This document shows positions 33,761-46,819 of a DNA stretch of 64,000 nt, in pieces. The notes under the pieces were generated by a model that searched no databases, was not told the DNA's origin, and was given only the letters and a program-made list of their open reading frames with translations. Position numbers and translations under genes: made by a program. The DNA comes from Actinacidiphila glaucinigra. GTDB lineage: Bacteria > Actinomycetota > Actinomycetes > Streptomycetales > Streptomycetaceae. The stretch is taken from NCBI RefSeq assembly GCF_900188405.1, contig NZ_FZOF01000001.1, forward strand, positions 124,001 through 188,000, written 5' to 3'. Position 1 is the first letter of the stretch. Each line of letters opens with the position of its first letter.

Positions 33761-36502
33761 TTACGCGTCGCCGCCCGCGGCACCGGGGTCGGCGGCGGCG
33801 ACGTCGAGCAGCTGGTAGCGGTCGATCGCCTGCTTCAGCACGGAGCGGTCGATCTTCCCCTCCTTGGCGAGCTCGGTGAGCACGCCGAGGACCACCGACT
33901 GGGCGTCGATGTGGAAGAACCGGCGCGCCGCGCCACGGGTGTCGGCGAAGCCGAAGCCGTCGGCGCCGAGCGACTGCCAGGTGCCCGGCACCCAGCGGGA
34001 GATCTGGTCCGGGACGGCCCGCATCCAGTCCGAGACGGCCACGAACGGGCCCTCGGAGCCGCTGAGCTTCTGCGTCACGTACGGGACGCGCTGCTCCTCC
34101 TCCGGGTGGAGCAGGTTGTGCGCCTCGGCCTCCACGGCGTCGCGCCGCAGCTCGTTCCAGGAGGTCGCGGACCACACGTCGGCCCGGACGTTCCACTCCT
34201 CGGCGAGGATCCGCTGGGCCTCCAGGGCCCACGGCACGGCCACGCCGGACGCCAGGATCTGCGCCGGGATCGCGCCCGCCTCGCCCGTCCGGTACCGGTA
34301 CAGGCCCTTGAGGATGCCCTCGACGTCCACGCCCTGCGGCTCGGCCGGCTGGACGATCGGCTCGTTGTAGACGGTGAGGTAGTAGAAGACGTCCTCGTTC
34401 GCCTCGGGGGTCCCGCCGTACATGCGGCGCAGACCGTCCTTGACGATGTGCGCGATCTCGAAGCCGAACGCGGGGTCGTACGCGACGACGGCCGGGTTGG
34501 TCGAGGCCAGCAGGTGCGAGTGGCCGTCGGCGTGCTGCAGGCCCTCACCGGTGAGGGTGGTGCGGCCCGCCGTGGCGCCCAGCACGAAGCCGCGCGCCAG
34601 CTGGTCGGCCATCTGCCAGAACTGGTCGCCGGTCCGCTGGAAGCCGAACATCGAGTAGAAGACGTAGACCGGGATCAGCGGCTCGCCGTGGGTCGCGTAG
34701 GACGACCCGGCGGCGATCAGCGAGGCGGTGCAACCCGCCTCGGAGATGCCGTCGTGCAGCATCTGACCGGTCGGGGACTCCTTGTACGCCAGCAGCAGCT
34801 CGCGGTCGACGGACTCGTACGTCTGGCCCAGCGGGTTGTAGATCTTGGCCGACGGGAAGAGCGAGTCCATGCCGAAGGTGCGGTACTCGTCCGGCGCGAT
34901 CGGCACGAAGCGCTTGCCGATCTCCTTGTCCCGCATGAGGTCCTTCAGCAGCCGGACGAAGGCCATCGTGGTGGCGATCGTCTGGTTGCCGGAGCCCTTG
35001 CGGGTGCCCGCGTAGGCCTTGTCGTCCGGCAGCGCCAGCGGCTTCGCGCGCACGACGCGGGTCGGGACGTAGCCGCCCAGGCCCTTGCGCCGGTCGTGCA
35101 TGTACTGGATCTCCTCCGAGTTCCGGCCCGGGTGGTAGTACGGCGGGGCGCCGGACTCCAGCTCCTTGTCGGAGATCGGCAGGTGCAGCCGGTCGCGGAA
35201 GCGCTTGAGGTCGTCGACCGTCAGCTTCTTCATCTGGTGGGTCGCGTTGCGGCCCTCGAAGTTCGGGCCGAGCGTCCAGCCCTTGACGGTCTGGGCCAGG
35301 ATCACGGTCGGCTGGCCCTTGTGCTCACGGGCCGCCTTGTACGCCGCGTAGATCTTGCGGTGGTCGTGGCCGCCGCGGCCCAGGTGCAGGATCTGGTCGG
35401 CGGTGAGGCCCTCGACCATCTTCCGCAGCCGGTGGTCGTCACCGAAGAAGTGGTCGCGGATGTACTCGCCGGTCTCGGTGGCGTAGGTCTGGAACTGGCC
35501 GTCGGGCGTGGTGTTGAGCTTGTTCACCAGCACGCCGTCGCGGTCCTGCGCGAGCAGCGGGTCCCAGGTCCGGTCCCAGATCAGCTTGATGACGTTCCAG
35601 CCGGCGCCGCGGAACTGCGACTCCAGCTCCTGGATGATCTTGCCGTTGCCGCGCACCGGGCCGTCGAGCCGCTGCAGGTTGCAGTTGACGACGAAGGTGA
35701 GGTTGTCCAGGCCCTCGCGGGCGGCCAGGGAGAGCTGGCCGAGCGACTCGGGCTCGTCCATCTCGCCGTCGCCGAGGAACGCCCACACGTGCGACTGCTC
35801 GGTGTCGGCGATGCCGCGAGCCTGCAGGTAGCGGTTCATCCGGGCCTGGTAGATCGCGCCCAGCGGGCCGAGGCCCATGGAGACGGTCGGGAACTCCCAG
35901 AAGTCCGGCATGAGCCGCGGGTGCGGGTAGCTCGACAGGCCGTACGGCGCCTTGGACCTCTCCTGGCGGAAGGCGTCGAGCTGGGTCTCGGAGAGCCGGT
36001 CCAGCAGGAAGGCGCGGGCGTACACGCCGGGGGAGGCGTGGCCCTGGAAGAAGATCTGGTCCCCTCCCTTGCCGTCGTCCTTGCCCCGGAAGAAGTGGTT
36101 GAAGCCCACGTCGTACAGGGAGGCAGAGGAAGCGAAGGTGGCGATGTGCCCGCCGACGCCGATACCCGGCCGCTGCGCCCGGGACACCATGACCGCCGCG
36201 TTCCAGCGGGTCGCGTTGAGGATGCGCCGCTCGATGTCCTCGTTGCCGGGGAAGAACGGCTCGTCCTTGGTCGCGATGGTGTTGACGTAATCCGTGCTGC
36301 GCATCTCGGGCACGGCAACCCGCCGCTCGCGGGCTCGCTCGATCAGGCGGAGCATGAGGTAGCGGGCGCGCTCGCGTCCGCGTTCGTCGACGGCGGCGTC
36401 AAGCGAGTCGAGCCATTCCGCCGTCTCCTCGGGATCGAAATCCGGGACCTGGCTGGGAAGGCCGCCAATGATGATCGGGTTGCGATCTGATCCGGAAGCC
36501 AC
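33761..36502 (-). CDS. aceE: pyruvate dehydrogenase E1 component, homodimeric type
   Basis: A 913-residue thiamine-diphosphate enzyme that decarboxylates pyruvate and passes the acetyl group to lipoyl-E2. The TPP motif [10 protein letters not shown]...NCNLQRLDG is at about 250-290, and the transketolase-like second half holds SAGCTAS-type [22 protein letters not shown] start 36502 follows an AAGGAA site. Length and gene are typical for Streptomyces, which uses this AceE type. It is separated from DUF3052 by a divergent promoter region containing TGGTAACCA-type palindromes. Confidence 0.97.
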
Positions 36503-37403: not shown

Positions 37404-37486
37404 GTTGTGTGCCCGTGGCGGTGCGAGACTGACGGCGGGGCCCGGCCGCGGGTCCCGTCACCGTCCACCGGAGAGGTGTGTCCACC

Positions 37487-37945
37487 ATGGCGCTCGCCGT
37501 AGGCGACCAGGCCCCCGACTTCGCGCTGCGGGACCAGCACGGCCGGACCGTGCGGCTGTCCGACTTCAAGGGCGCCAGGAACGTGGTGCTGCTCTTCTTC
37601 CCCTTCGCCTTCACCGGGGTCTGCACGGGCGAACTGTGCGCGCTCCGCGACGAACTGCCGGCCTTCCAGAACGACGACGTCCAGCTGCTCGCGGTCTCCA
37701 ACGACTCGATGCACACCCAGCGCGTCTTCTCCGACCAGGAGGGCCTGGAGTACCCGCTGCTGTCCGACTTCTGGCCGCACGGCGAGGTCTCCCGGGCCTA
37801 CGGCGTCTTCGCCGAGGACAAGGGCTGCGCGGTGCGCGGCACCTTCGTCATCGACAAGGAGGGCGTGGTCCGCTGGACCGTCGTCAACGGCCTGCCGGAC
37901 GCCCGTGACCTGAACGACTATGTCAAGGCGCTCGAAGCCCTGTAG
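37487..37945 (+). CDS. peroxiredoxin (AhpE-like)
   Basis: A 152-residue thioredoxin-fold peroxidase. The peroxidatic Cys is in [13 protein letters not shown] (P-x3-T-x2-C), and a second Cys follows four residues later. [14 protein letters not shown] marks the C-terminal strand. AhpE-type enzymes reduce hydroperoxides and peroxynitrite in the cytoplasm. ATG 37487 follows GGAGAGG by 10 nt. It lies 73 bp upstream of terD-like genes, fitting an oxidative/metal stress cluster. Confidence 0.93.
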
Positions 37946-38018
37946 TCCCGGGGAACCGGGTACTAACCTCAGGGCGTTGATCCTGATACGAGCAGCACGC
38001 GATGACATGGGAGGACCC

Positions 38019-38594
38019 GTGGGAGTCAGCCTCAGCAAGGGTGGCAACGTATCGCTGACGAAGGAGGCCCCCAACCTCACGGCCGTCATCGTCGGCCTCG
38101 GATGGGACGCCCGCACCACCACGGGCTCGGACTTCGACCTCGACGCCAGTGCCCTGCTCACGGGCACCGAGGGCAAGGTCCTCTCCGACCAGCACTTCGT
38201 CTTCTTCAACAACCTCAGGAGCCCCGACGGCTCCGTGGAGCACACCGGTGACAACATCACCGGTGAGGGCGAGGGGGACGACGAGCAGATCAAGGTGAAC
38301 CTGGCCGGTGTGCCGGCCGAGGTCGCCAAGATCGTCTTCCCGGTGTCGATCTACGACGCCGAGACCCGTCAGCAGTCGTTCGGCCAGGTGCGCAACGCGT
38401 TCATCCGCGTCGTCAACCAGGCCGACGACAGGGAACTGGCCCGTTACGACCTCACCGAGGACGCCTCGACCGAGACGGCGATGGTCTTCGGAGAGCTGTA
38501 CCGGCACGGTGCGGAATGGAAGTTCCGGGCCATCGGCCAGGGTTATGCGTCCGGCCTGCGCGGCATCGCGCAGGACTTCGGCGTCAACGTCTGA
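38019..38594 (+). CDS. TerD family protein, copy 1
   Basis: A 191-residue TerD domain protein. Calcium-site motifs are conserved: FDLDASALL (about 39) and [21 protein letters not shown] (about 60). The C-terminal [19 protein letters not shown] closes the fold. TerD proteins bind Ca2+ and act with TerC-like membrane proteins in stress and tellurite response. GTG 38019 follows GGAGG. It heads a run TerD-TerD-DUF475-TerA-like. Confidence 0.93.
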
Positions 38595-38657: not shown

Positions 38658-39233
38658 ATGGGCGTGACGCTCGCCAAGGGGGGCAATGTCTCCCTCACCA
38701 AGGCCGCACCCAATCTGACCCAGGTCCTGATCGGGCTCGGCTGGGACGCGCGCTCCACCACCGGCGCGCCCTTCGACCTGGACGCCAGCGCCCTGCTGTG
38801 CGCCTCGGGCCGGGTGCTCGGCGACGAGTACTTCGTCTTCTACAACAACCTCAAGAGCCCGGAGGGCTCGGTCGAGCACACCGGCGACAACCTGACCGGT
38901 GACGGCGACGGCGACGACGAGGTCCTGCTGGTGGACCTGTCGGCCGTACCCGAGCGGGTCGACAAGATCGTCTTCCCGGTCTCCATCTACGAAGCCGATG
39001 CCCGCGGCCAGACCTTCGGTCAGGTCAGCAATGCCTTCATCCGGGTGGTCAACCAGACCGACCAGAGCGAACTGGCCCGCTACGACCTCTCCGAGGACGC
39101 CTCGAGCGAAACGGCGATGATCTTCGGCGAGCTGTACCGATACGGCGGCGAATGGAAGTTCCGAGCCGTTGGCCAGGGGTATGCATCAGGGCTCCGGGGC
39201 ATCGCCCTAGACTTTGGGGTCAACGTTTCGTAA
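38658..39233 (+). CDS. TerD family protein, copy 2
   Basis: A 191-residue TerD paralogue, collinear along the full length with copy 1 and retaining its Ca2+ motifs ([28 protein letters not shown]). Its ATG at 38658 has a GGAGGAG site. Paired TerD genes of equal length suggest heteromeric assembly at the membrane; family studies support TerD-TerC association. The DUF475 gene follows after 16 bp, so coupling is likely. Confidence 0.93.
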
Positions 39234-39249
39234 AGGGATTGGATATCCA

Positions 39250-40392
39250 GTGCTCCTCCGAACTTTCGGCTGGTCGTTCGGTGTCACCGCCGCCGGCCTC
39301 GCCCTCGCCGGTTATCTGTGGGGTGCGGAGGGGCTTGCCCTCGTCGCCATCCTGTCGGTGCTGGAGATCTCGCTCTCCTTCGACAACGCGGTGATCAACG
39401 CCGGCATCCTGCGGAAGATGAATGCCTTCTGGCAGAAGATCTTCCTCACCATCGGCATTCTGATCGCCGTCTTCGGCATGCGCCTTGTCTTCCCGATCAT
39501 CATCGTGTCGATCACGGCCAAGCTGGGACCCATCGAGGCCATCGACCTGGCGATCAACAACAAGGAACAGTACGAGCACCTCGTCACCTCCGCGCACCCG
39601 GCGATCGCCGCGTTCGGCGGGATGTTCCTGTTGATGATCTTCCTCGACTTCATCTTCGAGGAGCGTGAGCACAAGTGGCTCGCCTGGCTGGAGAAGCCCC
39701 TCTCCAAGCTCGGCAAGCTCGACACGCTCTCCGTGGTCGTCGCCCTGGTCGCCCTGCTGATCACCGCCACCACCCTCGCCACCGCCGTCCCGCACGGCGG
39801 CGGCGACAAGTCCTCCACGGTGCTGCTCTCCGGCATCGGCGGCCTCATCACCTACCTCGTCGTCGGCGGCATCTCGAGCTACTTCGAGGACAAGCTGGAG
39901 GACGAGGCCGAGGAGGCCGACGAGGAGCTCGAGGAGATGAGCTCGGGCGGCAAGCCGGCCGGCAGTGGCGCATCGGCCGTGGGCCTGGCGGGCAAGGCGG
40001 CGTTCTTCCTCTTCCTCTACCTCGAGGTCATCGACGCGTCGTTCTCCTTCGACGGCGTCATCGGCGCGTTCGCGATCTCCAACGACATCTTCATCATCGC
40101 CCTCGGCCTCGGCATCGGTGCGATGTACATCCGGTCGCTCACCGTCTTCCTGGTCCGCAAGGGCACCCTGGACGACTACGTCTACCTGGAGCACGGCGCG
40201 CACTACGCGATCGGCGCGCTGGCGGTCATCCTCCTGGTCACCATCCGGTTCGAGATCAACGAGGTCATCACCGGCCTCATCGGCGTCGTCCTGATCGGCG
40301 CCTCCTACTGGTCGTCGGTGGTGCGAAACCGCCGTCTCGGGGAAAGCTCCGAGCAGCGGGACGACAAAGCGGAGGTGACGAGCGGGGTCTGA
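39250..40392 (+). CDS. DUF475/TerC-like integral membrane protein
   Basis: A 380-residue membrane protein with about nine helices in two repeated halves. Each half carries a TerC-superfamily acidic motif within a helix (ISLSFDNAVINAGIL and ASFSFDGVIGAFAIS), where the Asp is thought to take part in metal ion handling. An acidic loop EDEAEEADEELEE lies between halves. GTG 39250 is chosen with AAAGGGA upstream; the ORF is open only 12 codons further. It probably anchors the neighbouring TerD proteins. Confidence 0.9.
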   Translation: MLLRTFGWSFGVTAAGLALAGYLWGAEGLALVAILSVLEISLSFDNAVINAGILRKMNAFWQKIFLTIGILIAVFGMRLVFPIIIVSITAKLGPIEAIDLAINNKEQYEHLVTSAHPAIAAFGGMFLLMIFLDFIFEEREHKWLAWLEKPLSKLGKLDTLSVVVALVALLITATTLATAVPHGGGDKSSTVLLSGIGGLITYLVVGGISSYFEDKLEDEAEEADEELEEMSSGGKPAGSGASAVGLAGKAAFFLFLYLEVIDASFSFDGVIGAFAISNDIFIIALGLGIGAMYIRSLTVFLVRKGTLDDYVYLEHGAHYAIGALAVILLVTIRFEINEVITGLIGVVLIGASYWSSVVRNRRLGESSEQRDDKAEVTSGV

Positions 40393-40475: not shown

Positions 40476-41207
40476 ATGTGGAACTTCCTGCGGCCGAGCG
40501 GCGGCATCAACACGCAGTTCGACATGGCGAACGCGCACACCATCGAACTCACCCGGCGGCACCAGGTCGTCTCGCTGTCCAAGCAGGGCGCGGCCGTCGG
40601 CAATCTGCGCATCAACCTGTCCTGGCAGATGCGCACCTCCGACACCGGCGGTTGGAACCAGCGCAGCGGCTCCTGGCTGAGCCGCCAGATGCACCTGTTC
40701 AAACCGGAGCCCGTGCAGGCCGCCGGCCCCGCCATGGTCAACGTCGACCTCGACCTGGCGTGCATGTACGAGCTGACCGACGGCACCAAGGGCGTCGTGC
40801 AGCCGCTCGGCAACTTCCTCGGCGACCTCGACGCCCCGCCGTACATCCAGATGACCGGCGACGACCGCTTCGGCGGCTCGTCCGGCGAGACGCTCTACAT
40901 CAACCTCGACAAGCACGAAGAGTTCAAGCGCATGCTCGTCTTCGTCTACATCTACGACGGCACGCCGGCCTTCGACCGCACCCACGCCAAGGTGGAGATC
41001 TTCCCCAGTTCGGGCCCGCGGATCGAGATCCTGCTCGACGAGCGCGAGCCGCAGGCCCGCTCCTGCGCCGTGGTGCTCATCGAGAACAAGAAGGGCGACC
41101 TGACCGTGCGCCGCGAGGTGAAGTACGTCTACGGCTTCCAGGCCGAGCTCGACCGGCTCTACGGCTGGGGCCTGCAGTGGGGCCGCGGCTACAAGACCAA
41201 GGTCTGA
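40476..41207 (+). CDS. TerA-like/TerD-superfamily protein
   Basis: A 243-residue protein with a single TerD-like beta-sandwich. GAAVGNLRINLSWQ and VNVDLDLACMYELTDG form the divergent calcium site, and YIYDGTPAFDRTHAKVEIF is typical of TerA-type proteins. No membrane helix is present. GGGGAGGGA precedes ATG 40476. Gene order places it with the TerD/DUF475 set, 83 bp downstream of DUF475. A structural or sensor role in the ter complex is inferred. Confidence 0.85.
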   Translation: MWNFLRPSGGINTQFDMANAHTIELTRRHQVVSLSKQGAAVGNLRINLSWQMRTSDTGGWNQRSGSWLSRQMHLFKPEPVQAAGPAMVNVDLDLACMYELTDGTKGVVQPLGNFLGDLDAPPYIQMTGDDRFGGSSGETLYINLDKHEEFKRMLVFVYIYDGTPAFDRTHAKVEIFPSSGPRIEILLDEREPQARSCAVVLIENKKGDLTVRREVKYVYGFQAELDRLYGWGLQWGRGYKTKV

Positions 41208-41232: not shown

Positions 41233-42150
41233 TCAGCGGCGTTCCTGGAACTGCGGGCCCATCGGCGGCAGCCGGAACCCCTGCACCGGCTGCGGGTAGC
41301 CGTACGCGGGAGCGGGGGCCGCGGCGGTCGGGGCCGGCTGCTGCGGCGGGTAGCCGTAGCCGGGGGCGGGTGCGGCCACGGTGGGCTGCGGCTCCTGGGG
41401 GTAGCCGTACGCCGGGGCGGCCACCGTCGGCTGCGGCTCCTGCGGGTAGCCGTAGGCGGGCGGCGCGGTGGGCTGCGGGGGCACCGGCGCCGGGGCCTGC
41501 AGGGTGTACGCGTCCGGCTCGCCGGTCACCGCGACGGTCGGCGGCACGGGCTGCGGCGCCGGGGCCTCGCCCTCGGGCCGCGGCGGCGGCGCCTCGTCGA
41601 GGTCGCCCTCCTCCACGGTGATGCCGAACTCGGTGGCCAGCGCCTCCAGCCCCGAGGCGTAGCCCTGCCCCAGCGCACGGAACTTCCAGCCGCCCGCCCT
41701 GCGGTACAGCTCGCCGCAGATCAGCGCCGACTCGTCGCCGGTGTCCGGGACGACGTCGAAGAGCGCCAGCGGCTCGGCGTCGGAGCCCGCGGCCGTGTCG
41801 TAGAGCAGCACCGTCAGGTCGGAGACGAGGGCGAAGGGGCCGCCGTCCGAGGAGGCCGCGACGACCACCCGCTCCACGCCCGCCTCGAGCGCGGTCAGGT
41901 CCACCTCGACCGCGTCCGTCAGCCCGGCCGGCTCGCTGCGCTTGGGCAGGTGCCGGGCGGCGCCCCCGGGGTGCCGGGGCTGGTTGTAGAAGATGAAGTC
42001 CTCGTCCGAGCGCACCCGGCCGTCCGCGCCCAGCAGCAGCGCCGAGGCGTCCACGTCCGGCACACCCGCCCCCGGGCTCCAGCGGAGCACCGCCCGCACC
42101 GCCGAGGCCGTCACCGGGATGTTGGAGCCCTTCACCATCGCCTGCGTCAT
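41233..42150 (-). CDS. TerD-domain protein with Pro/Tyr/Gln-rich repeat tail
   Basis: A 305-residue protein. Residues 1-185 are a TerD domain, whose metal site is partly altered ([10 protein letters not shown] kept; [17 protein letters not shown] instead of NN-hydrophobic-SPDGS). Residues 190-305 are a low-complexity tail with [15 protein letters not shown] occurring twice perfectly and further YGYP units. Such tails can drive oligomer or condensate formation. It is divergent from the CitE-PRTase-HAD module and converges on the TerA-like gene. Start at ATG 42150. Confidence 0.88.
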
Positions 42151-42378
42151 GCGCGTAATCCTGCCCTCCCGGGGGCCGCGTCCACAACGCGGGGCGTGTG
42201 ACGGGTGTGCCGGAGGGGAGAGATGCGGACAGGCCGACATGTACCGGACCCGAGGGGGTTACCTGATTTTCACGTACGCCGGGAACGTCCGCAGGGGGCT
42301 CGCACGTACGATAATCGGCCACACGGCGTCGGGGGACGCTTCCCACCTCTCCAACCACCACCTGCCACGGGGGAACGC

Positions 42379-43545
42379 ATGCGCCACTTCGGGCACCTCG
42401 CACCGGACGTACGGAACGAGCTCTTCCACCGGGAGCCCGCGGAGTTCACCGCGGCCTCACCGGCCGGCACGCTGGCCGTCGCCCTCGGCGCCACCCTCTA
42501 CTGCCCGGCCACCCGCTCGCGGCTCGCCGACGACGTGCTCAAGCAGGCCGCGCGCGGGGTCGTCTCGATGGTGCTGTGCCTGGAGGACTCCATCGACGAC
42601 CGCGAGGTCGAGACCGCGGAGGAGAACCTGGTCCGCCAGTTCGGCGAACTGTCCCACCGGATCCCCGACGGCGACCCCCCGCTGCTCTTCATCCGCGTCC
42701 GCACCCCCGGCCAGATCACCGACCTCGTGCGCCGGCTCGGCGACGACGTCCGCCTGCTCTCCGGGTTCGTGCTCCCCAAGTTCACCGAGGAGTCCGGGGT
42801 CCCCTTCCTGGAGGCCCTCGCCGCCGCCGAGGCGGACTGCGGACGGCGGCTGTTCGCCATGCCGGTCCTGGAGTCCCCGCAGCTGCTCCACCTGGAGACC
42901 CGCACCGAGACGCTGTACGGCATCTCCCGCACCGTCGACAAGTACCGCGACCGCGTCCTCGCGCTGCGGCTCGGCGTCACCGACTTCTGCTCCGCCTACG
43001 GGCTGCGCCGCTCGCCCGACATGACCGCCTACGACGTCCGCATCGTCGCCTCGATCATCGCCGACGTGGTCAACGTCCTCGGGCGCGCCGACGGCACCGG
43101 CTTCACCATCACCGGACCGGTCTGGGAGTACTTCAAGCACTCCGAGCGCATGTTCAAGCCACTGCTGCGGCAGAGCCCCTTCATCCCCGCGGCCGTCGAC
43201 CTGCGCGAGGCCCTGATCCAGCGGGACATGGACGGGCTGCTCCGCGAGATCGAACTGGACCGGACGAACGGCCTGCAGGGCAAGACCTGCATCCACCCCT
43301 CGCACGTCCAGCCCGTGCACGCGCTCAGCGTCGTCTCCCACGAGGAGTGGAGCGACGCGGCCGACATACTCCACGAGGACCGCAGCGGCGGGGGCGTGCT
43401 GCGCTCGGCCTACACGAACAAGATGAACGAGGTGAAGCCGCACCGCGCCTGGGCCGAGCGCACCGTGCGGCGCGCCGAGGTCTTCGGCGTGGCACGGGAG
43501 GAGATCGGCTTCGTCGAGCTGCTCTCCGCGTGCGTGCCGTCGTGA
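42379..43545 (+). CDS. CitE/HpcH-HpaI-like lyase of the ter biosynthetic module
   Basis: A 388-residue TIM-barrel protein of the citrate lyase beta/HpcH superfamily. Metal and substrate residues are visible in VVSMVLCLEDSIDD, PLLFIRVRTPG, FAMPVLESPQLLHLE and KTCIHPSHVQPVHAL. It is larger than CitE (about 290 residues). In ter-linked operons it is the first of a set with phosphoribosyltransferases and a HAD phosphatase, where it is predicted to act on a C-C bond of a sugar- or nucleoside-like metabolite. ATG 42379 has no strong ribosome site. A GATAAT -10-like box is at 42310-42315. Confidence 0.88.
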   Translation: MRHFGHLAPDVRNELFHREPAEFTAASPAGTLAVALGATLYCPATRSRLADDVLKQAARGVVSMVLCLEDSIDDREVETAEENLVRQFGELSHRIPDGDPPLLFIRVRTPGQITDLVRRLGDDVRLLSGFVLPKFTEESGVPFLEALAAAEADCGRRLFAMPVLESPQLLHLETRTETLYGISRTVDKYRDRVLALRLGVTDFCSAYGLRRSPDMTAYDVRIVASIIADVVNVLGRADGTGFTITGPVWEYFKHSERMFKPLLRQSPFIPAAVDLREALIQRDMDGLLREIELDRTNGLQGKTCIHPSHVQPVHALSVVSHEEWSDAADILHEDRSGGGVLRSAYTNKMNEVKPHRAWAERTVRRAEVFGVAREEIGFVELLSACVPS

Positions 43546-43574
43546 CCGGCCACGAGAGGGAGAGTGCCGAGCGC

Positions 43575-45995
43575 ATGGCAGTAGAGGACGTCTGGTCCGG
43601 GCAGTGGGTCGCCGACCGGCTCGGTGTCACCCTGCGGGGAGAGGGCCTGAGCGGACTGCTCGGCCTCGCCCTGCGCCGCAACCCCAAGCGGGCGCACCTG
43701 CTGGTCTCCAATGTGCTGGGCAAGCACGTGCCGCAGCGCCCGCAGGTCGTCTACGACGCCGGGTACGGGCTCGGCGTGCGTGTGCGAGAGCTGCTCGGCG
43801 AGGAGGAGGCGGCCCGGGCCGTGGTGCTCGGCTACGCCGAGACCGCGACCGGCCTCGGGCACGCCGTGGCCGACGGCGTCGGCATCGCCCCGTACCTGCA
43901 CTCCACGCGGCGCCCCGTCCCCGGGGTCGAGGCGGTCGGCGGCTTCGAGGAGGAGCACAGCCACGCGACCTCGCACCTGCTGCTGCCCGAGGACCGCGGC
44001 CTGCTGGCCGGGGACGGGCCGCTGGTGCTGGTCGACGACGAGTTCTCGACCGGCCGGACGGTGCTCAACACGGTGCGCGCGCTGCACGCCCGCCACCCGC
44101 GACGCCGGTACGTCGTGGTCGCCCTGGTCGACATGCGCTCGGAGGCCGACCGCGCACTGCTCGCCCGCTTCGCGGCGGACCTCGGCGCGGGCGTCGACGT
44201 CGTCGCCCTGGCCTCGGGCACGGTCGGCCTGCCGGACGGGGTGCTGGAGCGGGGCCAGGCGCTGGTGGCCGCGCACGGCGCCGCGGCACCCGCGCGCCCG
44301 GCCGCGGCCGCGGCGCCGCACCGGGTGCACCTGGACTGGCCCGCCGGGCTGCCCGACGGCGGCCGGCACGGCTTCACGCCCGTACACCGCGCGCGGCTGG
44401 AGGCGGCGCTGCCCGCGATGGCGGCCCGCCTGGCGGAGGGCCTGGGCGTCGTCGGCGACGGCCCGGCACCCCGCGTCCTCGTCCTCGGCAACGAGGAGCT
44501 GATGTACGCCCCGCTGCGGCTGGCGCAGGCCCTCCAGGACGCCCTGCCCGCCGTGGAGGTGCGCTTCTCCACGACGACCCGTTCGCCGGTCCTGGCCGTG
44601 GACGACCCGGGGTACGCGATACGTACCCGGATCACCTTCCCCGACCACGACGACCCGGCCGACGGGCCCGGTGAGCGCCACGCGTACAACGTGGCGGGCG
44701 CGGGCTTCGACGCCGTCGTCGCCGTCGTGGACAGCGCGGGCGACACGCCCGCCCTGCACGCTCCCGGAGGGCTGCTCGCGCAGCTCGCCGGCCACACCGA
44801 AAGGCTCCTGCTGGCCGTGGTGCCCTCGTACGAACCCCGCCCGCCCGCCCCGACGCTCCCGGAGCCGCTGCGCGGGCCCGCGTTCTCCTCGTACGCGCCC
44901 GACGAGGTCGGCTGGCTGCTGAAGGACCTCTCCGACGTCGAGCTGGAGGCGCCCACCGAGGAGCGCGAGGAGGCCATCCAGAGCGGCGGGGCGCACTACG
45001 CGGAGTCGCTGCCGGTGGAGTACCAGCCCAGCGCGGAGTACCAGGAGCTGTTCCGGAACGCGCTGGCGGACTCCGCCGGCCGGATCGCCCGCGCCGTCGG
45101 CGCCGTGACCGAGCTGGTGCTCGCCGAACGCGGCCCGCAGGCCGTCCTGGTGTCGCTGGCCCGCGCGGGCACCCCCGTCGGTGTGCTGATGCGCCGCTGG
45201 GCCCGTCACGCGCACGGCCTGGACCTGCCGCACTACGCCGTGTCCATCGTCCGCGGCCGGGGCATCGACACCACCGCCCTGCGCTGGCTGGCCGAACACC
45301 ACGACCCCGCACGGGCGGTGTTCGTGGACGGCTGGACGGGCAAGGGCGCCATCACCCGCGAACTGGCCGACGCCGTGGCCCCGTTCGGGGGCTTCGATCC
45401 GGAGATCGCGGTGCTGGCCGACCCCGGGTCGTGCGTCCGCACCTTCGGCACCCGCGACGACTTCCTCATCCCGTCCGCGTGCCTGAACTCCACCGTCTCC
45501 GGCCTGGTCTCGCGCACCGTGCTGCGCGCCGACCTCATCGGCCCCGACGAGTTCCACGGCGCCAAGTTCTACCGCGAGCTGGCCGGTTCGGACGTCTCCG
45601 GCCTCTTCCTGGACGAGGTCTCGGCCCGCTTCGGCGCCGTGGCCGACGAGGTCGCCCAGGACGTCAAGGAACTCCAGGCCGGCGACCGCACGCCCACCTG
45701 GGAGGGCTGGGCCGCGGTCGAGCGGATCAGCGAGGAGTACGGGATCGGGGACGTCAACCTGGTCAAGCCGGGCGTCGGCGAGACCACCCGGGTGATGCTG
45801 CGCCGCGTGCCGTGGCGGGTGCTCGCCCGGCGCGGCGCGGGAGCCGACCTGGCGCACATCCGGCTGCTCGCCGAGCAGCGCGGCGTCCCGGTGGAGGAGG
45901 TGGACGACCTGCCGTACTCGTGCGTCGGGCTGATCCACCCGCGCTTCACCCGGGGCGCGACCGGCACGGACGGCAAGGCGGTGGAGGCCAAGTGA
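43575..45995 (+). CDS. phosphoribosyltransferase-TRSP-StiP-PELOTA fusion protein of the ter biosynthetic module
   Basis: An 806-residue multidomain protein. Residues about 30-240 form a type I phosphoribosyltransferase with the PRPP loop VLVDDEFSTGRT (151-162). Residues about 270-450 are the TRSP domain. Residues about 470-700 form a second PRT-like/StiP unit (LVSLARAGTPVGVLMRR, VFVDGWTGKGAI). About 715-800 is a PELOTA-type RNA-binding end (VGLIHPRF). In other genomes these are separate genes; here they are fused. A GAGGGAGAG site precedes ATG 43575; a GTG at 43542 overlaps the CitE stop. It is predicted to attach or remove ribose phosphate in an unknown pathway. Confidence 0.85.
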   Translation: MAVEDVWSGQWVADRLGVTLRGEGLSGLLGLALRRNPKRAHLLVSNVLGKHVPQRPQVVYDAGYGLGVRVRELLGEEEAARAVVLGYAETATGLGHAVADGVGIAPYLHSTRRPVPGVEAVGGFEEEHSHATSHLLLPEDRGLLAGDGPLVLVDDEFSTGRTVLNTVRALHARHPRRRYVVVALVDMRSEADRALLARFAADLGAGVDVVALASGTVGLPDGVLERGQALVAAHGAAAPARPAAAAAPHRVHLDWPAGLPDGGRHGFTPVHRARLEAALPAMAARLAEGLGVVGDGPAPRVLVLGNEELMYAPLRLAQALQDALPAVEVRFSTTTRSPVLAVDDPGYAIRTRITFPDHDDPADGPGERHAYNVAGAGFDAVVAVVDSAGDTPALHAPGGLLAQLAGHTERLLLAVVPSYEPRPPAPTLPEPLRGPAFSSYAPDEVGWLLKDLSDVELEAPTEEREEAIQSGGAHYAESLPVEYQPSAEYQELFRNALADSAGRIARAVGAVTELVLAERGPQAVLVSLARAGTPVGVLMRRWARHAHGLDLPHYAVSIVRGRGIDTTALRWLAEHHDPARAVFVDGWTGKGAITRELADAVAPFGGFDPEIAVLADPGSCVRTFGTRDDFLIPSACLNSTVSGLVSRTVLRADLIGPDEFHGAKFYRELAGSDVSGLFLDEVSARFGAVADEVAQDVKELQAGDRTPTWEGWAAVERISEEYGIGDVNLVKPGVGETTRVMLRRVPWRVLARRGAGADLAHIRLLAEQRGVPVEEVDDLPYSCVGLIHPRFTRGATGTDGKAVEAK

Positions 45996-46819
45996 AGCAG
46001 CGCCCGGAGATCGTGAAGTCCCTCGTCGCCAGCGACCTGGACCGCACCCTCATCTACTCGCCGTCGGCCCTGGCCCTGTCCATGGCCGACGAAGAGGCGC
46101 CGCGGCTGCTGTGCGTCGAGGTGCACGAGGGCCGGCCGCTGTCCTTCATGACCGAGACCGCCGCCGCGCTGATCCAGCGGCTCGCGGCAGCCGCCGAGTT
46201 CGTCCCGGCCACGACCCGCACCCGCAAGCAGTACCGGCGCATCAACCTGCCGGGCCCGGTCCCGCGGTACGCGATCTGCGCCAACGGCGGGCACATCCTG
46301 GTCAAGGGCCACACCGACCACGAGTGGAACGCCGAGATGCGCCGCCGCCTCGCCGAGGGCTGCGCGCCGCTGGACGAGGTCCGCGCCTACATGGCCCGCA
46401 CCGCGGACGAGTCCTGGCTGCGCAAGGAGCGCGTCGCCGAGGAGCTGTTCGTCTACCTGGTCGTGGAGCGGTCGCTGCTGCCCGAGCTCTGGGTGAAGGA
46501 CCTCGCCGAATGGGCGGACGAGCGCGGCTGGACGGTGTCTCTGCAGGGCCGCAAGATCTACGCCGTGCCCAAGCCGCTCACCAAGTCCGCGGCCCTGGCC
46601 GAGGTCGTCCGCCGCACCGGCGCCGACCACGTGCTCGCCGCGGGCGACTCCCTCCTGGACGCGGAGCTGCTGCTCGCCGCCCACACCGCCTGGCGTCCCG
46701 GCCACGGCGAACTCGCCGACACCGGCTGGGGCGCGCCGCACGTCGACGCGCTGGCCCTGCCGGGCGTCGCGGCGGGGGAGGAGATCCTGCGCCGGATGCT
46801 CAGCGTGGCGCGCCGCTGA
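45992..46819 (+). CDS. HAD-superfamily hydrolase of the ter biosynthetic module
   Basis: A 275-residue HAD enzyme. Motif I is SDLDRTLIY, motif II FVPATTRTRKQY (Thr in place of the usual nucleotide-binding Ser), and the metal Asp in HVLAAGDSLLDAEL. The cap lies in the C2 position, like Cof/sucrose-phosphate phosphatases. It probably removes phosphate from the product of the phosphoribosyltransferase fusion. GTG 45992 overlaps that gene's stop, giving a tightly coupled operon. Its 3' end overlaps the convergent kinase gene by 20 bp. Confidence 0.9.
   Translation: MKQRPEIVKSLVASDLDRTLIYSPSALALSMADEEAPRLLCVEVHEGRPLSFMTETAAALIQRLAAAAEFVPATTRTRKQYRRINLPGPVPRYAICANGGHILVKGHTDHEWNAEMRRRLAEGCAPLDEVRAYMARTADESWLRKERVAEELFVYLVVERSLLPELWVKDLAEWADERGWTVSLQGRKIYAVPKPLTKSAALAEVVRRTGADHVLAAGDSLLDAELLLAAHTAWRPGHGELADTGWGAPHVDALALPGVAAGEEILRRMLSVARR

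Follow-up and report, generated by a model that had tools for sequence, protein, structure and literature searches.

Several described systems come close to the genes discussed here, two of which are introduced first. The first is the Ter-linked module, for which a nucleoside-like product was predicted by Anantharaman, Iyer and Aravind in 2012 and which, as far as secondary descriptions (PMC7824862, PMC8115787) and the Pfam family names convey it, combines PRTase_2-TRSP, StiP-PELOTA, C-C lyase and HAD genes with TerD/TerC. The second is the capsule polymerase Bcs3, whose residues 599-1036 are described as CriT, an O-ribofuranosyltransferase that transfers ribose-5-phosphate from 5-phosphoribosyl-1-pyrophosphate (PRPP) onto a hydroxyl group and whose acid pair is split between D680 in loop 1 and E818 in loop 3; the HAD enzyme CrpP then strips the phosphate from the CriT product (PMC10299916), and Cj1432 is described as working in a like manner (PMC12096443). 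Here we analyse a three-gene operon of Actinacidiphila glaucinigra that lies in a 64,000-nucleotide stretch of contig NZ_FZOF01000001.1 (positions 124,001 to 188,000; hereafter the window, with a G+C content of 73%), in terms of its domain content, predicted folds, motifs, linkage, changes between fused and separate genes, and co-occurrence with an ATP-grasp gene.

The three genes lie on one strand and encode a CitE-like lyase, a PRTase_2-TRSP-StiP-PELOTA fusion and a HAD phosphatase (Table 1). The operon is a streptomycete form of the Ter-linked module, and we see about an even chance that it makes a PRPP-derived ribosylated stress metabolite. This type of module had been predicted before; our results suggest, as additions to it, likely reaction types for its parts, a different reading of StiP, the relatives of the HAD enzyme, the co-occurrence with ATP-grasp and a promoter-like element.

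Several features of the predicted module are present: PRTase_2-TRSP together with StiP-PELOTA, the C-C lyase with the HAD enzyme, and the linkage to TerD/TerC. An earlier note on this stretch had described the lyase, the 806-residue fusion and the phosphatase as one operon beside TerD, TerA-like and DUF475 genes, and both the open reading frames (ORFs) and the Pfam matches agree with it, coordinates included. Its reading of the operon as a Ter-linked module with two phosphoribosyltransferase (PRTase)-like units is likewise supported by domain content and predicted folds, and its PRPP loop lies exactly at residues 151-162. The second unit, which the note had set at about residues 470-700, does exist, but StiP spans residues 438-682 in the 806-residue numbering. 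Within the single fusion ORF, Pfam places PRTase_2 (7e-68), TRSP (6.5e-38), StiP (6.1e-106) and PELOTA_1 (1.3e-35) in this order, each far above its cut-off. An alternative GTG start at 43542 would lengthen the fusion to 817 residues, and the GTG start of the HAD gene overlaps the TGA stop of the fusion.

Compared with the module of 2012, as given by secondary description, this locus is set apart by the fusion of PRTase_2-TRSP to StiP-PELOTA, by an ATP-grasp gene located on another contig, and by the promoter-like element of streptomycetes. The modules of an IncHI2 plasmid (L086, CP049307.1) and of a Pseudomonas plasmid (L090) contain homologous ATP-grasp, PRTase_2, HAD, StiP-PELOTA and lyase proteins, but as separate genes and in the order ATP-grasp, PRTase_2(-TRSP), HAD, StiP-PELOTA, lyase; L090 additionally carries a trypsin-like gene after the ATP-grasp gene and a second HAD gene after the lyase. 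The order found here (lyase, PRTase_2-TRSP, StiP-PELOTA, HAD) recurs with TerD and DUF475 on a Tsukamurella plasmid (L087), where, however, two separate genes overlapping by 4 nucleotides take the place of the fusion. Phage ME3 also has separate genes, with no match to TRSP. Bcs3 CriT/CrpP and Cj1432 resemble the module, by description, in pairing a PRTase-like core with a HAD enzyme, and PRPP has been shown to be the donor there; in contrast, their acceptor is a polymer, they were not found by sequence, and the descriptions consulted mention no PELOTA, TRSP or lyase part. Relatives of the fusion occur on many plasmids, mainly those of enteric bacteria, and our literature searches returned no characterised product for the biosynthetic half of a ter system.

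The model of the full-length fusion was poor (predicted local distance difference test, pLDDT, 61.7), and the PRTase_2 part was used alone. Residues 22-231 of this model match PyrR, APRT, OPRT and their relatives with VIA Z-scores of 10.4-11.7 among the 50 matches shown. The adjacent acidic pair of the type I PRTase PRPP loop is present, with D154 conserved in 123 of 124 sequences and D155 in all 124, both residues being also invariant in five sequences of a separate alignment. The TTRSP motif (334-338) of the TRSP domain is at least 97% conserved in the same 124 sequences. The conservation sets omit 19 loci that are duplicates, are truncated or are distant (L103 and L104), as well as rows with a stop or below 60% of the length of the window protein; L086, L088 and L090 are in the StiP set and absent from the PRTase_2 set.

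StiP and PELOTA were modelled together (residues 432-806; pLDDT 83.4, predicted template modelling score 0.89). The top VIA matches of the StiP part are 8a0c and 8a0m (Z 10.9 and 10.7, root-mean-square deviation (rmsd) 4.0-4.1, 200-203 aligned residues, 7% identity), and the aligned chain residues fall within 636-1000 of Bcs3, which identifies the best match as the CriT region. PyrR comes second for the same part, at Z 8.6-8.9. Conservation was followed in 127 sequences, 25 of them from outside the window's family: in the PRPP-loop-like motif, D585, G586, W587 and G589-K590-G591 are each found in 127/127 and T588 in 126/127, and there is no adjacent acidic pair, the D585-G586 step being present in every sequence of the set. 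Invariant residues outside this motif include D565, in the preceding loop, as well as R530, S557, D616 and H661 (127/127 each), next to the slightly less constant R560 (120/127) and R562 (126/127). D565 might be the second acid of StiP, although the second acid of CriT lies in a different loop. By its predicted fold, StiP appears no less similar to an O-ribosyltransferase than to a nucleobase PRTase, and "nucleoside-like" may therefore not be the right class for the product.

The HAD protein has no Pfam match at 1e-3 (Hydrolase_3 reaches 0.025), and phmmer finds it distantly related to PDB entries 6cj0 and 6d3v, known as TPP and filed as trehalose phosphatase. Across 122 sequences its D15, D17, K198, G218 and D219 show at least 97% conservation, which gives the DxD, K and GD motifs of the superfamily. 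The HAD protein of the Pseudomonas plasmid module (L090:9998-10756), encoded between PRTase_2 and StiP, is near-identical to 6d3v and 6cj0 (528 bits, E 2e-158) and has Cys85 and Cys231, the two cysteines named for the assayed extra-chromosomal trehalose-6-phosphate phosphatase of P. aeruginosa in PMC6838324. The window HAD protein shares 43.4% identity with its Tsukamurella counterpart and 26.3% with that of IncHI2. Work by Cross in FASEB J in 2018 reportedly covered chromosomal and extra-chromosomal enzymes, both said to hydrolyse trehalose-6-phosphate. No paper containing both "trehalose-6-phosphate phosphatase" and "tellurite resistance" came up in a literature search that barely covered other wordings, and the link between this enzyme and the ter module may therefore have gone unnoted.

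The earlier note had reported the ATP-grasp partner as missing locally and had proposed to look for it elsewhere in the genome. The profile search of the source genome gave three ATP-grasp matches, on contigs C50, C39 and C67, and none of the Ter family on the window's own contig (C75). The Ter-family member is the C50 protein (ATPgrasp_Ter, 352 residues, 122 bits), which is 35% identical to the IncHI2 enzyme over 232 residues. With this protein as query, at E 1e-10, ATP-grasp was found in 22 of 345 genomes of the class, all of them StiP-positive (22/81, versus 0/264 StiP-negative genomes). Ignoring relatedness, this co-occurrence has a Fisher p of 1.2e-15, it persists outside the window's family f1 (6/48 versus 0/264, p 1e-5), and by genus all 7 ATP-grasp genera fall inside the 19 of 127 with StiP (p 6e-7). 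In genus g209, one genome (G353) has both genes and another (G305) has neither. A profile threshold of more than 100 bits gave 7/9 StiP-positive f1 genomes, 0/3 in family f3 and 0/14 StiP-negative class genomes, one StiP-negative genome (G038) having a 47.5-bit match that is over the cut-off, and a threshold of 1e-15 gave 8 of 29 chosen StiP-positive genomes. Among 20 ATP-grasp neighbourhoods other than that of the source genome, one of which covers only 5 kb, two have ter genes close by (L215, L216). ATP-grasp looks like an optional part of the module, all absences by protein search being provisional.

The likeliest chemistry would be two different PRPP-dependent ribosylations followed by dephosphorylation. 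In the scheme that we infer, as regards PRPP use, linkage type, order, product and signalling role alike, PRTase_2, with its normal DD motif, would put phosphoribose on one acceptor, probably in N-linkage, and StiP, non-canonical and CriT-like, would ribosylate a hydroxyl-type acceptor with a second PRPP. The PELOTA domain would bind the substrate or RNA, and the HAD enzyme would then take off the terminal sugar phosphate, much as CrpP acts on the product of CriT. The role of the CitE-like lyase may be to make or trim a carbon skeleton, and the unlinked ATP-grasp enzyme may add a ligated group in some strains. The product would be a small PRPP-derived ribosylated metabolite, acting as a stress signal or as an effector of the adjacent TerD/TerC proteins. 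A more specific version, with an O-ribosylated (ribofuranoside) or RNA-linked signal in place of a nucleoside, StiP as a soluble stress-response cousin of the capsule enzyme CriT, PRTase_2 and StiP performing two chemically distinct ribosylations within a single protein, and a HAD enzyme of the trehalose-phosphatase type clearing the terminal phosphate, is put forward tentatively, as possible rather than probable. With a probable type of reaction, a homologous phosphatase of solved structure and a naturally occurring single polypeptide, the question becomes testable with purified protein, PRPP and acceptors.

Several observations weigh against this proposal. The likeness between StiP and CriT, seen in a predicted model, is structural only, given the 7% identity; the model draws on 37 sequences, of which 34 are close to that of the window, and the StiP acids D565 and D585 do not fall in the loop pair used by CriT (loops 1 and 3). 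Foldseek gave no match to the StiP-PELOTA model at E below 0.001, its top rows being pyridoxal phosphate enzymes at an rmsd of about 20, which were disregarded, followed by PyrR and L7Ae, and 8a0c is absent from the 30 chains found by sequence profile at E up to 10. The trehalose-phosphatase relative of the Pseudomonas plasmid and the window HAD protein share only 27.7% identity (253 columns), and the former's role is less certain for it, since its natural substrate within a ter module stays putative. ATP-grasp lies away from ter genes in 18 of the 20 neighbourhoods and was not found in 17 of the 33 StiP-bearing f1 genomes, a provisional figure, as few candidates were scored per genome. Since the PyrR rows score about 2 Z units lower than those of CriT on the predicted model, a regulator is also possible, StiP-PELOTA being then a PyrR-like, nucleotide-sensing RNA-binding protein without catalysis, and the single acid in the StiP PRPP loop would fit such a role. 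However, R530, S557, D565, D585, D616 and H661 are invariant even when plasmid and phage members are included, as would suit an active site, and in structure StiP is matched best by CriT, a catalytic protein, which makes the regulator improbable to us.

RNA modification is a related alternative, in which PELOTA holds a structured RNA, the PRTase-like domains add phosphoribose or exchange a base, and the HAD enzyme trims a phosphate. In the model, the stretch 277-368 (fusion residues 708-799, approximately) matches proteins of the L7Ae/L30e/YbxF type at VIA Z 8.5-9.8, and K731, E736, R739, R743 and R744 are found in 127/127 sequences; by sequence, the match to L7Ae is weak (E 0.11). Both PRTase-like domains also match the RNA-binding PyrR. 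Yet a fold of this type is no proof of RNA binding, and a module that in its wider form includes a lyase and an ATP-grasp enzyme points to the synthesis of a small molecule, so that we consider RNA modification unlikely, albeit the least unlikely of these alternatives. A role in ordinary nucleotide salvage or homeostasis, without any special product, would agree with the resemblance of PRTase_2 to APRT, OPRT and PyrR, but it sits badly with the dedicated ter linkage, the two PRTase-like domains, the lyase, and the presence of the set or parts of it on plasmids and viral contigs, and its chances appear slim. The Pfam and NCBI family names would instead make StiP a cysteine protease, which might process a Ter protein. 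Nevertheless, no cysteine is invariant in the 127 sequences (position 620 is conserved in 122, 636 in 124 and 783 in 124), none of the three is present in L088 or L090 and the last two are missing from L086, and the fold rows point to CriT and PyrR, even though protease folds outside the list of rows are conceivable. Because every cysteine column has gaps, StiP is unlikely to be a protease of this kind, and the widely used label is probably wrong; the processing of a Ter protein is the most improbable of all these readings.

The earlier note had also held that the fusion fixes the order of action, which our comparison does not support. Among 23 loci chosen from the 81 StiP-positive class genomes, the two units are fused in 9 and separate in 14, a count made without three distant loci of the phylum: L160 and L162, with no PRTase_2 hit, and L161, with a weak, separate one. 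Moreover, the HAD gene sits between the two in enteric and Pseudomonas plasmids. On a tree of 33 tips (concatenated domains, 745 columns, LG+G4+F), the fused or separate state requires 4 changes, while 1000 label shuffles needed at least 6 (mean 11.3); the state thus follows the tree and yet changes. Split tips stand between the fused tips of the streptomycete clade and those of the family f3 clade, which includes a locus almost identical in kind to that of Tsukamurella. Because support is low (27 to 77) at several nodes, it is uncertain how many such changes there were and whether they went by fusion or by re-splitting. Since the two parts are often encoded by separate genes elsewhere and four changes of state are needed on this tree, the fusion does not fix the catalytic order. 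The start codon overlaps the stop by 4 nucleotides in 11 of 14 separate pairs (nearest start picked by script; L087 counted and the truncated L175 left out), and the fusion seems to take tight translational coupling one step further. It is uninterrupted in 79 of 80 streptomycete loci; in the remaining one (L032:8001-10568) a TGA falls within the TRSP-StiP linker, at the domain junction, with an ATG closely after it, which may reflect a natural re-split or else an error in the sequence.

These streptomycete loci are the best 80 of at least 576 relatives from a scan of genome contigs, and they come from streptomycetes and near relatives, Actinacidiphila among them. All 80 have the lyase, the fusion and the HAD gene, 78-79 have TerD (with cross-hits between paralogues), 75 the TerA-like gene and 74 DUF475, some contigs being short. 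Most of the loci share the usual order of genes, far beyond chance. StiP was found in 15 of 296 genomes of the phylum sample (14 over the cut-off) and in 81 of 345 of the class sample (80 over the cut-off), including 33/33 of family f1; the class count takes the 81 positives at 1e-3, among them G392, which is below the cut-off. The fusion has matches in 2567 of 72,556 plasmid records, mostly from enteric bacteria, 5 of which cover 80% or more of it at a single place, and in 3 of 50,697 phage records. Viral contigs L183, L184 and L089 carry ter-module genes, L183 having a nearly full Pseudomonas-like module with ATP-grasp. Three scans of viral sequences all led to the same two contigs with relatives, which left the alignments shallow. 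We also considered that family f85 might carry the module at a distance from ter genes, a view that lost ground: 7 of 8 f85 loci (L163, L164, L166, L171, L172, L179, L180) showed no TerD, but in 10 of the 12 f85 genomes searched the contig with StiP also holds a strong TerD, some 14-19 kb away.

Table 1. Features of the operon and of the adjoining ter genes (window coordinates)
Feature	Position	Strand	Details
TerD	37920..38594	+	Pfam 5.6e-86
TerD	38658..39233	+	Pfam 6.8e-83
DUF475/TerC-like membrane protein	39214..40392	+	Pfam 9.7e-134
TerA-like protein, distant TerD relative	40476..41207	+	PF02342 at 0.051 only
TerD domain with Pro-rich tail	41233..42240	-	Pfam 3.9e-42
Promoter-like element GGGAAC-N18-CGTACGATAA	42281..42314	+	precedes the operon
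CitE-like C-C bond lyase, PF15617 C-C_Bond_Lyase	42379..43545	+	388 aa; Pfam 4.5e-123
PRTase_2-TRSP-StiP-PELOTA_1 fusion	43575..45995	+	806 aa from ATG; one ORF
PRTase_2 domain	43656..44219	+	Pfam; predicted type I phosphoribosyltransferase fold
PRPP loop of PRTase_2, with D154 and D155	44025-44060	+	VLVDDEFSTGRT, residues 151-162
TRSP domain	44355..44780	+	Pfam
StiP domain	44886..45620	+	Pfam; predicted PRTase-like fold, closest to Bcs3 CriT
PRPP-loop-like FVDGWTGKG in StiP	45321-45347	+	
PELOTA_1 domain	45699..45938	+	Pfam; predicted L7Ae/L30e/YbxF-type fold
HAD phosphatase	45992..46819	+	275 aa; distant relative of 6cj0/6d3v, 1.7e-12

Upstream of the operon, on the same strand, are two TerD genes, the DUF475/TerC gene and the TerA-like gene, and between these and the operon sits the TerD-Pro-rich gene, divergent from the operon. 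In the first TerD gene the Pfam match begins at residue 36, and the real start is probably 3' of 37920. The TerA-like protein aligns with genes located amid ter genes in L086 (36%) and L090 (37%). None of 8 proteins matched the anti-phage models of PADLOC-DB 2.0.0 at 1e-3, and one of 4 proteins matched PHROGs, in a family of unknown function.

The promoter-like element looks, by its sequence, like an alternative-sigma promoter. The motif xGGAA[CT] stands exactly 18 nucleotides before the right-hand anchor in 79 of 81 anchored streptomycete loci, as GGGAAC in 69, and a stricter count gives 67 of 80, the 13 misses including the truncated contig L068. In other families the anchor is present in one of 21 loci (L158), where the left half is missing. 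Within the divergent gap between the TerD-Pro-rich and lyase genes, a longer element at 42256-42314 (GTTACC.GAA.TTCA followed by GGGAAC-N18-ACGTACTATTACCGGCCA in streptomycete loci) is strongly conserved. The element was also considered as the mark of a regulon that would include ATP-grasp, an idea that was rejected: the ATP-grasp locus of the source genome (L005) has no match, the 20 other neighbourhoods have one (L204), away from ATP-grasp, and the genome holds a single exact copy, with two hits at 2 mismatches against one for the reversed control.

As for the neighbours of ATP-grasp, the ATPgrasp_Ter gene of the source genome (L005, L001:880-2426) overlaps a polyketide-cyclase-like (SRPBCC) gene. 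The streptomycete neighbours gave no clue to a pathway; 14 of the 15 other loci of the streptomycete family have a different, common neighbourhood with helix-turn-helix regulators, and a GH18-like gene in 10. On the far side of the ter region of the window, genes that we take to encode a pyruvate dehydrogenase E1-like protein (33761-36502) and a peroxiredoxin-like protein (37478-37945) flank the region in 67/80 and 73/80 streptomycete loci, respectively.

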